From a virus: DNA of 20,313 nucleotides. The notes under the pieces are model-generated. The model was not told where the DNA came from and searched no databases. It saw only the letters and a list, made by a program, of their open reading frames with translations. The stretch covers positions 1-20,313 of the IMG/VR virus record IMGVR_UViG_3300035698_013833, one strand, 5' to 3'. This document shows, one piece after another, positions 7,093 through 19,626 of the stretch (positions are counted from its first letter, which is position 1; each line of letters starts with the position of its first letter). A program made the position numbers and the translations under genes.

Positions 7093-8508
7093 TTATGTAT
7101 TTATCATGTTATTATCAACATTTTGTCCGTTTGATACTCGATCCGATACTTCATTTTTCATAACACTTTTATCTTTATTTTCATCCCCTAACTCCTCATT
7201 AATTTCATTTTCTCTTAATTCAATTTCCTCATCAGAATCACCATTTTCAATATAGATTTCTTTTCTAGATTTCTTAGTTGATTTGATTTCAGATTGCTCA
7301 TATAAAAGTTGATCGAAAGGAGAAGATTTGATTATGAATTTAGGTTTCTGGAATGATAAATTTTTATCTGTTTCCTCATCATACATATCATTTTCTTTTA
7401 GTAAAATTTTAAACCACAATTGCATGGCTTTAATTATACTGTCTACATACAGCTCAATTTTATTTTCACTAGGGAGATTGAGTTGTTGGATTACCCGTGA
7501 TGAGTCGATGTTAAGTTTTTCTAATAAGCTGGGAGTTATTAGACCTGCTTTCCCAAACAGATCATCTCGTGCTACTGTAAATTCTTTGAACATTGAGTTT
7601 AAGTCATTCTTAATTTGAACATCTTGTAGTTGAGCTTGCTTTCCATCTGGGACTCCTGTTGCTTTAGTATTAATTTCTAGAAACCCAGCAGGAGTCCTTC
7701 TACTGCCTGATCCTAAAATTCCATCGATAATTGCTAGGATTGGGAATCCTAAGTTTAAGTTGCATTGACGAATGTTACTGAGTATAGAAACTAATAAAAG
7801 ACTTGGGTCAATATAGTGTTCTGCTGGTATCTCACTAAATTCATCCCTCTGTTTTTTGTACCCTTTTATATGAATCAAAGGAAAATCATTAATATAACTA
7901 TCTCTATTTATAATTGTATCAACTCCATACTGCTTATTACCTTTTTCATCTTTTATTAATTTATTATCCTCATCAAATAAAGGATCTAGTATCACCTTTC
8001 TGCCTTTTTCGTATATTACTATTCTCTCTCTATCGATATTATCAATAATCTCACCACTGCCTAAATCAGCATATTCATCTTCTACCCATTCTTCATATAC
8101 ATATTGTTTATATCTATTCTTATCATTAAGCAATGCTCTTTTCATATTAAATGAATCTAACACCATTAGTTTAGGTATCTTATCTTCCTCATCATCAAAG
8201 AATATTTCTAAAAACATATCTCCAGACTCTTCTAATCCATCATATATTTCATTTAAAAGTAGATTCCAATCTATCTCATTTAGAGCATCTTTTATAAATT
8301 TTCTTTTCTCAGAATCTCTTGTAAATACGTTGACTAAATCTGGGCAATAAGATACAAGTTTTTTTATAATTGAATCCATATAATTATAATCTATATATAT
8401 TTTTTTTAATTCTTCGTCCGTGACCATCAGTTGACCATCACTATTTTTTAGGTTTTTTTCTAAAACGAATTTTGACTTGAAGAACTCAAATGATTCACCT
8501 TTCCTCAT
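7093..8508 (-). CDS. Portal protein (main open reading frame; N-terminus probably longer)
   Basis: This is the SPP1-type portal protein, the dodecameric ring at the capsid vertex used for DNA entry and exit. Seen are an N-terminal helical wing, a strand-rich region with IPKLMVLDSFNMKRALL and WVEDEY, the middle segment FPLIHIKGYKKQRDEFSEIP followed by a long helix (YIDPSLLLVSILSNIRQ), and a charged, disordered C-terminal tail after residue 420. The first ATG (8508) has no ribosome binding site. The frame stays open for 27 more codons to an ATT at 8589..8587, placed 8 nt after GGAGG, so the real protein may be 498 aa or more. It follows an endonuclease gene that appears to have split it. Confidence 0.85.
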   Translation of the reverse strand: MRKGESFEFFKSKFVLEKNLKNSDGQLMVTDEELKKIYIDYNYMDSIIKKLVSYCPDLVNVFTRDSEKRKFIKDALNEIDWNLLLNEIYDGLEESGDMFLEIFFDDEEDKIPKLMVLDSFNMKRALLNDKNRYKQYVYEEWVEDEYADLGSGEIIDNIDRERIVIYEKGRKVILDPLFDEDNKLIKDEKGNKQYGVDTIINRDSYINDFPLIHIKGYKKQRDEFSEIPAEHYIDPSLLLVSILSNIRQCNLNLGFPILAIIDGILGSGSRRTPAGFLEINTKATGVPDGKQAQLQDVQIKNDLNSMFKEFTVARDDLFGKAGLITPSLLEKLNIDSSRVIQQLNLPSENKIELYVDSIIKAMQLWFKILLKENDMYDEETDKNLSFQKPKFIIKSSPFDQLLYEQSEIKSTKKSRKEIYIENGDSDEEIELRENEINEELGDENKDKSVMKNEVSDRVSNGQNVDNNMINT

Positions 8509-8586
8509 TTTTCGTATCGTATCAATCTCTATCTGTCTTTCTGCTTCATCTGATTTGTCTAATAGATATGTAAATGCGTAAGTTGA

Positions 8587-8604
8587 AATTTAAATCACCT
8601 CCTT
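8587..8604 (-). promoter_or_regulatory. Ribosome binding site pointing to an ATT start for portal
   Basis: On the minus strand AAGGAGGTG (8604..8596) lies in the last codons of the broken endonuclease gene. GGAGG ends 8 nt before ATT (8589..8587), the first codon of the portal frame after the endonuclease stop codon TAA. No ATG, GTG or TTG is available at that distance. ATT is a known but rare start codon. Alternatively the site belongs to the inserted element and drives weak restart. Confidence 0.5.
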
Positions 8605-8835
8605 TAATCCCACTTCTATTTCAAGTATAGATTCTATATTATTAAAGTCCCAATATGGAATTCTAATTAATTTTATATTATTATCTTGACAATATTTTTC
8701 TTTTATAGCATCATTAACCTTTTGTCTTTTAAGAGTATCTTCTCCTCCAAAATAAGGAATCGAATAGTAATGTTGCTTTCCATTATACTCTATTAATATA
8801 TTATAATCCGATAAATAAAAGTCAAACCTTAGCAC
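8590..8835 (-). CDS. Fragment: nuclease domain of the broken endonuclease
   Basis: This 81-residue frame carries only the nuclease domain: FDFYLSDYN, an acidic residue in ILIEYNGKQH, an aromatic/Gly stretch, then DAIKEKYCQDN and the strand IKLIRIPYWDF. The corresponding residues in the intact relative at 12113-13492 read IAIEVDGFLH and KLFRIKYDD, so Glu and His are kept while the Asp is Asn here. The listed ATG is internal. The frame is open upstream to about 8870 and encodes PEHFFKGCKNDRVL, which belongs to the domain. Confidence 0.6.
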   Translation of the reverse strand: MLRFDFYLSDYNILIEYNGKQHYYSIPYFGGEDTLKRQKVNDAIKEKYCQDNNIKLIRIPYWDFNNIESILEIEVGLKEVI

Positions 8836-8866
8836 TCTATCGTTTTTACAACCTTTAAAAAAATGT

Positions 8867-10024
8867 TCAGGTATAGATTTTAGATTTTAAGAACATATCT
8901 ATTCTTAATTCCCCCTTACTAGCCTTACTACAAATTCCACACGTTCTCTTGTAAGAGTTCTGAAAGCAATGGAATGAGGTTCTGAATGTATTTGTACAAT
9001 TACATTCTACATCTAATAATTCATCTACCCCATCATATGTTTTCGATAGTAAAGTACAATTATTATCTTCTATAAATTCTTTTACATATTCATAAGAGTG
9101 TCGTCCATTTAATCCTCTTTCTTTATTCGAACATTTAATACATTTCCTTATCTTACTAGCTTTAAAATCATCAAAAGTTTTTTCGAAGTTAGAACCACAT
9201 TCACATTTAAATATTAGGAGTTCTTTTATTGTTTTATATTCGGTACTTAATAACTCACAAGAACTATTTTTCTCTACAAAATCATTAACTTCCTTATATG
9301 TCAACCTTCTATCTAGTCCTTTTAATTCTAAAGAACACTTATTACAATGAGTTTTCCCTCCCATAACTTGTGTAAATGGTACTTCAAATTCCGTACCACA
9401 CTCACATCTCAATCGTATAGGAATCATATTATTAGTATATGTTTTACTTAATAATATACAATTAGTATTAGTTTCTATGTAATTTTTAACATAATTATAT
9501 GAATTCTTTTTAGATTCGTTTCTTTTATCTTGAGCACATATTTCGCACTGTTTATCATTCACCTTAAAATTCGCAAAAGTTTGAGTGAAATCATTTCCAC
9601 ACTTACATTTAAAATTAAGTTGAGTACTGTTATTAATGTATTCTGTAGATAATAATTCGCAATCTGAGTTCTCTTTAACGTATTCTTCAACATCTTCTAT
9701 CTTAAAATTAAATAAGTTTCTCATCTTTTCTTTTGTACATTCATTACAAGTTATTTTACCACCTTTAAATTCAGAAAAGTTTGTTTCAAAGGAATTTCCA
9801 CATTCACATTGTATGGCTAGTTTATCAACATTACTTTTATAGTCACCACTCAATAACTTTCTATTTGAGTCTTTTTCTATATATGTTTTAACATGTTCAT
9901 ATGATAGTCTTATATTTTCACTCCTATTTTCTAATCCACAATCATCACATTGTCTCTTATTCATAGATTTAAATATAGTAAATTGAGTTGTAAATGGCTT
10001 CCCACACTCACATTCAAAATTCAT
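8867..10024 (-). CDS. Fragment: zinc-ribbon repeats 2 to 7 of the broken endonuclease
   Basis: These 385 residues hold the rest of repeat 2 and repeats 3-7. Each repeat has a CxCG knuckle and a later CxxC, except that the first Cys pair of repeat 7 is CNC followed by T. It ends prematurely just after GELRIDMFLKS, the linker that leads into the nuclease domain in the intact relative. The ATG is internal (MNFECECG) and has no ribosome binding site, so this frame is unlikely to be translated on its own. Confidence 0.6.
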   Translation of the reverse strand: MNFECECGKPFTTQFTIFKSMNKRQCDDCGLENRSENIRLSYEHVKTYIEKDSNRKLLSGDYKSNVDKLAIQCECGNSFETNFSEFKGGKITCNECTKEKMRNLFNFKIEDVEEYVKENSDCELLSTEYINNSTQLNFKCKCGNDFTQTFANFKVNDKQCEICAQDKRNESKKNSYNYVKNYIETNTNCILLSKTYTNNMIPIRLRCECGTEFEVPFTQVMGGKTHCNKCSLELKGLDRRLTYKEVNDFVEKNSSCELLSTEYKTIKELLIFKCECGSNFEKTFDDFKASKIRKCIKCSNKERGLNGRHSYEYVKEFIEDNNCTLLSKTYDGVDELLDVECNCTNTFRTSFHCFQNSYKRTCGICSKASKGELRIDMFLKSKIYT

Positions 10025-10045
10025 AGGGGTATGATTATTCTTATA

Positions 10046-10309
10046 TTATGTACTTATTAATTTGCAATTTGAATTATTTTCTACAAAATCTTTAATATCG
10101 TTATAAATGAGTTTTATTTTAGTACCACGCCCACAATTTTCACATTTAAATGGGTTTCTCTTGATGTTTTTCAAACTTAGTTCTGTCTCTTTTCCACATC
10201 CACATAATACTTTCAAAGGTGTTTTTAAGTCTTTATATTCAGTATCCAATAAAGTAAATCCAGAATTTTCAATCAACCATTCGCTTATGTTTTCTATATT
10301 CCACCTCAT
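10046..10309 (-). CDS. Fragment: first 1.5 zinc-ribbon repeats of the broken endonuclease
   Basis: This 87-residue frame contains repeat 1 (with CGCG instead of CxCG spacing variants, then CENC) and the helical half of repeat 2 up to CKLIST, where a TAA replaces the expected Glu codon. It has the authentic start: AGGAGGTAATTAATAATG, with GGAGG 9 nt from the ATG. Only this fragment is likely to be made from the present sequence. Confidence 0.6.
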   Translation of the reverse strand: MRWNIENISEWLIENSGFTLLDTEYKDLKTPLKVLCGCGKETELSLKNIKRNPFKCENCGRGTKIKLIYNDIKDFVENNSNCKLIST

Positions 10310-10311
10310 TA

Positions 10312-10377
10312 TTAATTACCTCCTATTTGATATATTAAAGGGATACGATCATAGGAGTAATCGTCCAATAAGCCCAT
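10312..10377 (-). CDS. Candidate displaced N-terminal piece of portal, 21 codons
   Basis: Between the terminase stop and the endonuclease start lies a short frame that starts ATG GGC TTA TTG and reads MGLLDDYSYDRIPLIYQ before running into the endonuclease ribosome binding site and a TAA. Joining its codon CAA to the ATT at 8589 gives IPLIYQ followed by ISTYAFTYLLDKS in the portal frame, a plausible continuous amphipathic N-terminus. AAAT occurs at both borders. The ribosome binding site (AAGAAG) is weak and close. That the two pieces were once one gene is inference from reading frame, position and sequence character. Confidence 0.5.
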   Translation of the reverse strand: MGLLDDYSYDRIPLIYQIGGN

Positions 10378-10407
10378 GACTTCTTATTGTTTTATCCCAT
10401 ATGTTTA

Positions 10408-12135
10408 TTATAATACTGTCATGTATGTTCGTGGGAAGGGTGTTGATTCTTTTGGTTTCCAATCCAACTTTTGTAATCTAGGTCGCCAAACATGTTCTCC
10501 ATCATTAAATTCTTTTCTATTATTAGAGCATTCAAATGCATAATGATATCCAATAGTACTTAATGCTAAAGAATTTATATGATCATCTGAAAAGTCTCCT
10601 GATGAAGAATCTGGTGCTTTGTATTCAATTCTATTTTCTTTTTTTTCTTTTTTAAGATATAGCATTTCTTCTACTAATTTTTCACTTTCCCAACTTTCAT
10701 CTTCTAATAGTAAATTTAACCGTTGATCATATAACATAGTTTCTAAATAACCAAATAACTTTTCTTTCATATTTGAAGAATATGGATATGGAAACATCTG
10801 AGTTTTACATTTTTTATCCCTCATAGCATTATATAAAGTTTGAATAAAATACAATTGTTGAGATGTACTATCTACACATACTATATCAACTTTGAATCTA
10901 TCACATATACTTACAATTTCATTACATTTGAATTCCATACTTCTACGTTCTCTATTCTTATTAACTGTTTTCATATATTTTACTTTTATTATAGGATTTC
11001 CAAATGAATCAAATGTATGTTCTGTAAGTGTCATACTAAAATAATCGTGTTTTGGTGAAATATCTACTCCTAAAATTATCCAATTCTTCTTATTTGTAAT
11101 AGGAGTATCTATGGTTTCGGTTAATATTTTACTATCAGTTAATACTTTTCTTGTAATAAATTTACCATTACTATCTTCAAAATCACAATAGTAGTTCCAT
11201 CTAATATAAGATGATTTTTCATTGCCTCTCATTCTATTAGTCACATCTAATTTATATCCTTCTGCCATTTTTTTATCAGTTAATAATCTTAACTTATAAA
11301 TATCTTCCCATGGGTGAATTACATTCGTGGTATTACTATTTAAAAAATTTTGAAATAAAAAACTAGCACTACTATTTGTAGGTAACCCATATAAAAATAT
11401 AGGTGCATTTGTGGCAGTTGTAAATGGTGTCGAAGATACTTCAAAGTCATGATTATTTACCAGACCACTCTCATCAACAATCATACAATGACAGCTCAAA
11501 GAATCGTTCTGAGACCCAGTAGTTATTGCAAATATTTGAGACCATGGTAGTTCCTCGCCATCTATAATTCTATTGATCTCTAGTTTAGTGGCATTATTTT
11601 CTAATCTACTATTTTCTTTGTCTGATATTAAAGATGAATGGGGAAACATTATGTTAAATAATTCCAAACCTTTTAATATATAAGGCTTAGTCTCCTTAAA
11701 TAACTTTTTAACACTTTTAGCATCAAATGATGCTAAAACTGATGAAAATCTATCTAACTTAGTTTCTAAATACATCATTCCGAATGATTGTAAATACCCA
11801 AAAGTTAATTTTATGGATTCACTCTTACCACTTTGTCTTGCCCAAGCATTTAATACTCTTTCAGATCTAGGGTCTAAAACTCTTTGTATATTATTTATGA
11901 TGCTTGACCATTGATATGTAAATAACGGAAGAATTCTAAACTTCCCATTCTTAGGGTTCTTTTTTCTTCTGACAAAGCTCACATATTTTACCAGTGAAAA
12001 TAAATGTGGGATATCCTCTATTAATTCACATTCATTAGTGGATATATTATAATTTATAGCAATTGGTTCGAAATAATCACTTCTATTTTTTTGGTATAGT
12101 ATATTATATTTTTCATCTAAGTATAAACTGTTCAT
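10408..12135 (-). CDS. terL: Terminase large subunit, 575 aa
   Basis: This is the DNA-packaging motor: an N-terminal ATPase and a C-terminal RNase H-fold nuclease that cuts the concatemer. Seen are an adenine/Walker A region VLNAWARQSGKSES (residues about 94-107), a Walker B MIVDES (about 218) with the catalytic Glu-like residue next to Asp, and a coupling motif near FLYGLPTNSSA. The nuclease acidic residues are in WIILGVDISPKHD (about 353), VDIVCVDSTSQQ (about 425) and SDDHINSLAL (about 532). Length is normal for the family. The start ATG overlaps the end of the upstream endonuclease gene by 23 bp and has only a weak GGA site, so expression may depend on coupling. Confidence 0.93.
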   Translation of the reverse strand: MNSLYLDEKYNILYQKNRSDYFEPIAINYNISTNECELIEDIPHLFSLVKYVSFVRRKKNPKNGKFRILPLFTYQWSSIINNIQRVLDPRSERVLNAWARQSGKSESIKLTFGYLQSFGMMYLETKLDRFSSVLASFDAKSVKKLFKETKPYILKGLELFNIMFPHSSLISDKENSRLENNATKLEINRIIDGEELPWSQIFAITTGSQNDSLSCHCMIVDESGLVNNHDFEVSSTPFTTATNAPIFLYGLPTNSSASFLFQNFLNSNTTNVIHPWEDIYKLRLLTDKKMAEGYKLDVTNRMRGNEKSSYIRWNYYCDFEDSNGKFITRKVLTDSKILTETIDTPITNKKNWIILGVDISPKHDYFSMTLTEHTFDSFGNPIIKVKYMKTVNKNRERRSMEFKCNEIVSICDRFKVDIVCVDSTSQQLYFIQTLYNAMRDKKCKTQMFPYPYSSNMKEKLFGYLETMLYDQRLNLLLEDESWESEKLVEEMLYLKKEKKENRIEYKAPDSSSGDFSDDHINSLALSTIGYHYAFECSNNRKEFNDGEHVWRPRLQKLDWKPKESTPFPRTYMTVL

Positions 12136-13492
12136 TTTTATCTATCCAACCCTCGATATCTTTAATATCATCATATTTTATTCTGAATAATTTTATATCA
12201 TGGTCTTTACAATATTTAGTTTTTATACTATCCCTATAAACACACTTTAAAAAATTAGAATATTTTTTAAAAAAGTATTCTACATATTCTCGATGTAAAA
12301 ATCCATCAACTTCTATAGCAATATTTTTTTCTGGTATATAAAAATCGAAAGGAAGTGTATTTATATGAATACAGTCCTTGAAACTTTTTTGATGTATGTA
12401 TTTAATACCTATAGAATCTAACCAATCCATTATAAATTTCTCTCCATTACTAACTGTTCCCCTGCAACTATTACATCTTCTCTTATTTCCAGTATTAAAT
12501 TCATTAAAAGTAGTTGTAAATATTTTTTTACAACTACATTCAATATCTATATACTCATTAGATTTTTCATATTTTGAAATTAACTTACAACCACGATTTT
12601 TAATATAATCATATACGTATTCATGAGTATATCTCCTACCTAAACCATTTAAAACGTGGGAACATTTAAAACAACTTCTATGTTTATTAGATATATAAGA
12701 TATAAAATCTTGTTCATATGTTTCACCACATTTCCAACATTTTATACGCATAACTTGTCTTGTATTCTCATAGTCACATTCGCTTGTCAATAAAGTTGAC
12801 ACATTCTTTTCTATGTTATACCGAATATAAGCATAACTTCGTATAACATACCCACTACAATTATCACACTGCCTTTTATTTTTATTTTTAAATTTCTTAA
12901 ATGTGGTGTAAAAACGAGTCTTGCAACTACACTCCAATTCTATTTTAGACTCATAACTTTCATATTCTGTATCTAATAATTTGCAATGTGAGTTGTTTTC
13001 AATATAGTGTTTAATACCATCATATGAATAATCTAAATAATTAGTGTTACACCTGAAGCAAGCATGAACTTTATTTTTTATTATAGTATGTGGGTATGTG
13101 GTAACTTCATTACCACATTCAATACATATAAAGGTTTGTTTTTTACTAGAATTTATAAATATATTTTTAGGTTTTAACTTACAATATTTTTCTAGTAATT
13201 CTAAGGCTTCTTCAAAACCATATTTTGTTTTACCCGTACACACGTTACATTTATATCTTTTTGAGTTTTTAAATTTAGCAAAAGATCTATCAAATTCTCT
13301 TCCGCATGTACATTCTATTTTTAAAAAATCAGTGTTTCTAACATAAGTATTAGAAATTAACTTACATCCTTTTAGTTCTATAAATTCTTTAACAAATTCA
13401 TAAGAGTAAGCTTTATTTGCTCTTTCTATTATTAATTTATTCTCCTTATAGTTTATTTCTTTATTCGAAATGTTAGTCGGATAATTTAGCAA
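12113..13492 (-). CDS. Homing-endonuclease-like protein: five zinc-ribbon repeats plus Vsr-like nuclease
   Basis: This is the intact relative of the broken gene at 8590-10309. Five repeat units (beginning at about residues 27, 90, 154, 215 and 286) each have the helix Y.(Y/F)VK.(F/Y)IE, then C.CG/C.C and CxxC. The C-terminal domain, residues about 345-459, contains GEKFIMDWLDSIG, LPFDFYIPEKNIAIEVDGFLH and KTKYCKDHDIKLFRIKYDD, matching Vsr/PD-(D/E)XK-type phage homing endonucleases (Asp, Glu, DG..H). The TTG start at 13492 has no ribosome binding site. An AAGGAG sits before an ATA at 13429..13427 in a context nearly identical to the start of the relative, so translation may begin there (438 aa). 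The end overlaps terL. Confidence 0.75.
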   Translation of the reverse strand: MLNYPTNISNKEINYKENKLIIERANKAYSYEFVKEFIELKGCKLISNTYVRNTDFLKIECTCGREFDRSFAKFKNSKRYKCNVCTGKTKYGFEEALELLEKYCKLKPKNIFINSSKKQTFICIECGNEVTTYPHTIIKNKVHACFRCNTNYLDYSYDGIKHYIENNSHCKLLDTEYESYESKIELECSCKTRFYTTFKKFKNKNKRQCDNCSGYVIRSYAYIRYNIEKNVSTLLTSECDYENTRQVMRIKCWKCGETYEQDFISYISNKHRSCFKCSHVLNGLGRRYTHEYVYDYIKNRGCKLISKYEKSNEYIDIECSCKKIFTTTFNEFNTGNKRRCNSCRGTVSNGEKFIMDWLDSIGIKYIHQKSFKDCIHINTLPFDFYIPEKNIAIEVDGFLHREYVEYFFKKYSNFLKCVYRDSIKTKYCKDHDIKLFRIKYDDIKDIEGWIDKNEQFILR

Positions 13493-18014: not shown

Positions 18015-18685
18015 TAATCTGGGTAATTAATCCAAATCAAATTGTTAGTAATAAGATAATCATAATTATCCGTTCGCTAACTTGTAATCTACAATTAAAT
18101 TATAAATTCCAACATAACGATCAGCCTTCTTTTGGCTGTGAGTTCATTCACTAGTGACATCCGTTTCCTCTAGTAAATTATGAAATTGATTTTATAGTAA
18201 TCTGCCTACTATTATTATTGAAATAAGTTTTACCGTTGCTTATTACAACATCTAGCCCTTATGTCTAGCTTTTATCAGATTTATACGTGTCAACTCACGG
18301 CAAACTTTCAATTTTAATCTTGATCTTGAGATTACTTTCGCAATCCCTTGTTGATGACATCTCATTGGTTAGGTATGAGAGACCTGCTACTTGAATTTTT
18401 ACATCCGTCAAGTCGGAATGCCTAGTCATCATCATAGACACTTTTAATTCAATCGGCGTAAAGCCTAATTGAGCTTTCTTTTACATCGTTGCTCTACGAT
18501 TTACAGTTTGACTTTTCTTTATTTGGACTGCTCGATTTAGCCTGCGAGCAAATCTTCGATTAGTATGTCCTCCTTTCATTGAACACTTTCAAACTCTCAT
18601 AGTTTAACGTCCGTGAGCCCAGATACGCTAATCACCTCGTATTATCAATCGATAACGTGTTACTTTAACCTTTACGAAAAAGGTT
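18015..18685 (-). ncRNA. Candidate large structured RNA in a gene-free stretch
   Basis: No reading frame with a start site was found here on either strand. Positions 18241-18660 contain 161 G or C in 420 (38%), high for a spacer in a genome near 30%. Notable stems (plus-strand positions) are GTTAG/CTAAC enclosing GATAAT-CATA-ATTATC across a 6x6 internal loop (18044-18081), TGCTCG/CGAGCA (18529-18550), TCTCAT/ATGAGA (18360-18380), ACTTGA/TCAAGT (18389-18413), TCAAT-C-GGC/GCC-TA-ATTGA (18449-18472) and AACCTTT/AAAGGTT (18667-18685). Large RNAs such as GOLLD and ROOL occur in Firmicute phages near tRNA genes, as here. I cannot confirm membership by eye. Strand is assumed from the neighbours. Confidence 0.4.
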
Positions 18686-19551: not shown

Positions 19552-19626
19552 TGGTGCTGAGACACTTAGTCGAAAAGTGATTTCCTGATTACAAAACAGG
19601 TGTAATAGCCATTATACTATATCAGC
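19552..19626 (-). tRNA. tRNA-Thr, anticodon UGU
   Basis: The 75-nt gene reads as a cloverleaf: acceptor GCTGATA/TCTCAGC with one T-C mismatch, D-arm with GG in the loop, anticodon stem CCTGT/TCAGG with loop TTTGTAA (anticodon TGT, reading ACA), a 4-nt variable loop, T-arm CACTT-TTCGACT-AAGTG, discriminator A and an encoded CCA. One mismatch each in the acceptor, D and anticodon stems makes it less regular than host tRNAs, as is common in phage. It is alone in the window and lies beside strongly structured sequence. Confidence 0.85.

Follow-up and report, generated by a model that had tools for sequence, protein, structure and literature searches.

Homing endonuclease genes (HEGs) are known to split nrdA, topoisomerase and DNA polymerase genes of their hosts (PMC2988022), and they often occur close to terminase genes (PMC10448857). 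Free-standing phage HEGs, such as the T4-like seg and mob genes and the T5orf172 and HNH genes near terminase (PMC2988022, PMC10448857), resemble the HEG studied here (HEG1) in that they have no intron, lie beside an essential gene and are absent from that place in relatives. Unlike them, HEG1 is a putative pseudogene located at the start of a portal gene, and PMC10448857 does not contain the word portal. In the nrdA-mobE arrangement of Aeh1 (PMC2988022), an intron-less HEG also adjoins the coding frame of a host gene, but there it sits within a critical region, so that the protein is split, whereas at the HEG1 locus, judged by relatives, no portal sequence lies upstream of the HEG. The intron-encoded endonuclease of the Twort large terminase gene (terL; MT151386) has a related C-terminal nuclease part (47.5%) and belongs to the packaging module too; however, it is found inside an annotated spliced terL, while HEG1 has no intron match around it. 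Among the papers that we searched, none reported a HEG interrupting a portal gene.

The translation starts in these systems are also relevant. In Aeh1, the nrdA frame downstream of the HEG has its own ribosome binding site, and the same is true of the portal frame. The infC gene combines an AUU start codon with a Shine-Dalgarno sequence (SD); portal has such an SD, and its initiation at AUU is inferred. In infC, the AUU start codon serves the autoregulation of IF3, and we know of no autoregulatory logic of this kind for the AUU of portal.

Gene order and relatives of the locus

The window, i.e., the whole stretch of DNA analyzed, is a virus contig of 20,313 nt, on the minus strand of which a small-terminase-like gene, a second endonuclease gene (HEG2), terL, HEG1, portal and capsid genes follow one another in this order:

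14230-13562, minus strand: small-terminase-like gene, assigned by position only
ending at 12113, minus strand: HEG2, flanked by the small-terminase-like gene and terL
10408..12135, minus strand: terL, with the Walker A motif WARQSGKSE; 36-39% identical over its full length to the Fnu1 and phiKSUM terminases, with aligned starts
10310..10407, minus strand: gap of 98 nt between terL and HEG1 (relatives have 9 nt between terL and portal)
7093..8589, minus strand: portal frame, 498 codons counted from an ATT and 471 from the ATG at 8508

Among 50,697 phage records, the portal, terL and capsid proteins had matches only in the Fusobacterium phages Fnu1, FNU2, FNU3 and phiKSUM (30-38% identity). The portal protein is 35-37% identical to Fnu1 gp015 and phiKSUM CDS0086, and its relatives represent two lineages only, at about 35% identity. 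The Fnu1 and phiKSUM homologs were named portal and terminase in a published comparison (PMC11760851), which supports the portal assignment; the protein was thus identified by its homology to proteins called portal and by its position adjoining terL. Nothing in Pfam, PHROG or PDB matched it above noise, and no profile library recognized it. A structure model built from two sequences reached a pLDDT of 38, too poor for use. Scanning viral contigs for relatives of portal, terL and the capsid proteins and for the portal N-terminal motif yielded only Fnu1, plus one unrelated false match (L002), and no relatives were found in the genome contigs and plasmids scanned. In Fnu1, FNU3 and phiKSUM, the portal ATG lies 9 nt after terL without a HEG in between. 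As for terL of the window, it has only a weak SD, and at the N-terminus the protein is shorter by a few residues than in Fusobacterium phages.

A decayed, intron-less endonuclease gene

HEG1 extends from ATG 10309 to TAA 8590 on the minus strand, between terL and portal, and tblastn matched it to many annotated phage homing endonucleases. It consists of the following parts:

10319..10324, minus strand: HEG1 SD AGGAGG, 9 nt before the HEG1 ATG
10046..10309, minus strand: 5' part of HEG1, 87 codons with an intact first zinc-finger-like unit, closed by an in-frame TAA
8867..10045, minus strand: middle part of HEG1, zinc-finger-like repeats in the same frame as before the TAA; matches the endonuclease families phrog_559 (E 1.5e-43) and phrog_681 (E 1.3e-29)
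8590..8886, minus strand: 3' part of HEG1, nuclease domain, displaced into a different frame by a 1-nt shift; 47-63% identical to phage endonucleases in their C-terminal parts

By analogy with other C-terminal parts of this sort, that of HEG1 would be EDxHD-like. Two lesions interrupt the gene. The first is the in-frame TAA at 10046-10048, where similar repeats have GAA (Glu), and the second is a 1-nt frameshift near 8867-8886, where one extra A is present within an A-run. Around HEG1, no group I intron matched in Rfam, either at the gathering level or at E values up to 5, and no other Rfam RNA family was detected. HEG1 therefore combines a match to endonuclease families and absence from this place in relatives with a reading frame that is no longer intact. 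Judged by its sequence, it is a decayed member, i.e., a pseudogene, of the free-standing (intron-less) kind of HEG.

The distance from the HEG1 stop codon to the portal frame is 0 nt. Since HEG1 is broken by both the TAA and the frameshift, a ribosome starting at HEG1 is not expected to arrive at the start of portal. Initiation of portal must then occur de novo, in agreement with the strong SD described below.

The start of portal

After the HEG1 stop codon, the portal frame reads ATT TCA ACT TAC and remains open for 27 codons before its first ATG (8508). The elements at this junction are:

8594..8604, minus strand: portal SD AAGGAGGTGAT, within the last HEG1 codons; longest match to the anti-SD on the window's gene-bearing strand
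8587..8589, minus strand: ATT, putative portal start codon, aligned with the initiator Met of the Fnu1 and phiKSUM portals, at an SD spacing of 8 nt

The sequence AAAGGAGGTGAT, whose 11-nt core is AAGGAGGTGAT, sits 8 nt before ATT 8589, and the last HEG1 codons (GGA TTA AAG GAG GTG ATT TAA) overlap it. When all strong SDs were scanned, those at gene starts led to an ATG or GTG at 5-10 nt, the exceptions being portal (ATT, 8 nt) and HEG2 (ATA, 8 nt). No ATG, GTG or TTG is present within reach of the portal SD, and no SD precedes ATG 8508. The first-pass annotation had described the 27 open codons from ATT 8589 to ATG 8508, the SD 8 nt ahead of the ATT and the missing SD at ATG 8508, all of which are present as described, and its suggestion that the endonuclease brings a ribosome binding site for the downstream frame agrees with the location of the portal SD in the 3' end of HEG1.

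Multiple lines of comparison place these 27 codons within portal. The intact Fnu1 and phiKSUM portals begin with M-S-I-Y, the column of which matches I(ATT)-S-T-Y here. The 23 aligned residues after the first one are 26-35% identical to the intact relatives, which comes near the 35-37% found for the remaining protein, and the similarity of the 27-codon stretch to the relatives exceeds that of shuffled sequences (p 0.004 and 0.012). The first 11 residues align weakly (p 0.02-0.08), with 3 residues of gap. Codon usage in the 26 codons after the ATT is coding-like, at the 46th percentile of coding windows, a score reached by 2% of wrong-frame windows. Thus, on homology and codon usage, the 27 codons ahead of ATG 8508 are assigned to portal, which would make this ATG internal. 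It is the first canonical start in the frame, and portal might now begin there with 27 residues lost; however, it has no SD, it aligns to residue 25 of the Fnu1 portal within a conserved stretch, and the codons upstream of it are still coding-like and conserved, so that such a truncated start is highly improbable.

As an initiator, AUU is very rare and of low efficiency, and it is surprising that an essential structural gene should rely on it. On the other hand, each virion requires only about 12 portal copies. In work on near-cognate initiation, AUU was decoded only weakly by the CAU anticodon in vitro (PMC10158994), which counts against initiation at this codon. A base error in the contig would remove the difficulty: with ATG as the true codon at 8587-8589, an ordinary intergenic HEG would be followed by an ordinary portal start, and ATG would suit position, SD and homology alike. 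The three anomalies within 1.7 kb (the TAA in the HEG, the 1-nt indel in the A-run and the ATT) could all be consensus errors. However, the core morphogenesis genes in the window read through without lesions, and errors would therefore have to cluster in HEG1; moreover, decay of HEGs is common. We consider such an error rather unlikely.

The sequence upstream of the endonuclease gene

The first-pass annotation had also proposed that portal is split by the endonuclease gene, with its first piece in the leader of HEG1:

10377-10312, minus strand: 21-codon frame MGLLDDYSYDRIPLIYQIGGN followed by a stop codon, the proposed first piece; probably not a portal exon

This frame does exist. The proposed 5' exon comprises its first 17 codons (10377-10327, MGLLDDYSYDRIPLIYQ), which would be followed by the HEG and then by the remainder of portal, equipped with a separate SD. 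The joined frame is open, AAAT occurs at each border, and the upstream piece starts with MGLL-, which resembles a common kind of portal N-terminus. However, there is no SD in the sequence preceding ATG 10377, and the frame has a codon score of -1.76 bits; the 17 codons score at the 4th percentile of real coding windows, a level reached by 25% of wrong-frame windows. A frame of such length is present in 20% of shuffled leaders. The borders CAA|ATA and TAA|ATT indeed have four flush bases in common (AAAT), but this carries no weight: when any of 20 in-frame left borders is allowed, a match of this quality occurs in 36-42% of random trials. A target duplication of AAAT was rejected on the same chance expectation (0.36-0.42).

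Comparison with relatives points in the same direction. The 17-codon piece shows no similarity to the relatives beyond that of shuffled sequences (p 0.12-0.21). When it was forced in front of the portal protein, MAFFT paired its M with their M and opened a 20-residue gap, and because Met residues are paired across such a gap, the alignment alone leaves room for a 17-residue extension. In the relatives themselves, the portal frame is closed upstream by a stop codon after 0 codons (Fnu1 and FNU3) or 3 codons (phiKSUM), so they have no room for MGLLDDYSYDRIPLIYQ. A lineage-specific portal extension of 17 residues could exist, since the relatives are only about 35% identical. Among the features of a gene in pieces, a separate ribosome binding site is present for the downstream piece (AAGGAGGTGAT, 8 nt before the ATT), whereas the upstream piece does not look coding, and homology to one contiguous relative is found for the downstream flank and not for the upstream 17 codons. 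The annotation had named lack of similarity to either flanking stretch as evidence against its proposal; similarity is lacking upstream and present downstream. An N-terminus joined from the 17 residues and portal is therefore not supported, and a portal gene in pieces is very unlikely. What stands of the proposal here is that an intron-less endonuclease gene abuts the portal frame; portal is probably not split by it, as the relatives start at the residue encoded by the ATT.

The 5' edge of HEG1 allows another history, in which the HEG inserted at the portal start itself, so that the original SD (AGGAGG, 10319-10324) and ATG 10309 of portal have come to serve the HEG, and portal received a new SD and an accidental ATT from the tail of the HEG. 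The ancestral junction would then read AGGAGGTAATTAATA-ATG-TCA-ACT. The sole good SD and ATG upstream of the insert lie exactly at the 5' edge of the HEG, and ATG 10309 joined to TCA ACT TAC would encode MSTY, comparable to MSIY in the relatives. On the other hand, the first repeat of HEG1 is whole when read from the Met of HEG1 itself, HEGs mostly arrive with a start codon already in place, and the 98-nt upstream gap would need another origin, given the 9 nt in relatives. Capture of the portal start is clearly unlikely on this balance. The broader implication that an essential structural gene lost its SD and AUG to a HEG and was left to start at AUU, and that the phage would use AUU and AUA starts at the genes disturbed by HEGs (portal and HEG2), is just as doubtful.

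The 98-nt leader folds as a three-way junction that is not significant (z -0.5 to -1.4), and hence we do not claim a riboregulator.

Other features of the window

In HEG2, an SD stands 8 nt ahead of ATA 13432 (13447-13429, minus strand). Before this ATA the frame scores as non-coding and after it as coding, and no in-frame ATG is present across roughly the first half of the gene. Either AUA is the start codon of HEG2, or the gene no longer has one. Its leader (13570-13432, minus strand) forms a significant fold (z -3.7), matched in stability by 0 of 200 shuffles. The SD lies inside this fold, and in this respect it is similar to the hairpins that sequester ribosome binding sites in T4-type HEGs. 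At its other end, HEG2 shares 23 nt with the beginning of terL (12113-12141, minus strand). In addition, a tRNA-Thr (TGT) gene was detected at 19552-19626 (minus strand), and two strong SD-like sites lie at 18569-18635 (minus strand), after which no gene of at least 25 codons starts.

Discussion

We favor, with a probability of about 0.6, an undivided portal gene that starts at AUU 8589, with the intron-less HEG1, now a pseudogene, located in the terL-portal gap and supplying the portal SD. A free-standing HEG of the zinc-finger-repeat/EDxHD-like kind would have entered the short terL-portal gap without an intron and decayed by a nonsense codon and a frameshift. Its last codons would provide portal with an exceptionally strong SD, and ribosomes would start de novo at ATT 8589, with AUU read as fMet. 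HEG1 probably persists because its 3' end now supplies the portal SD. As far as sequence comparison goes, HEG1 would be a further free-standing HEG at a new neighbor gene rather than a demonstrated case of a new split gene.

If the ATT is a contig error, the locus would contain an ordinary intergenic HEG. If AUU truly starts portal, an essential structural gene of a phage would operate on a near-cognate start codon, sustained by the exceptionally strong SD of a dead selfish gene, and automated gene calling would set the start of portal 27 codons too far downstream.
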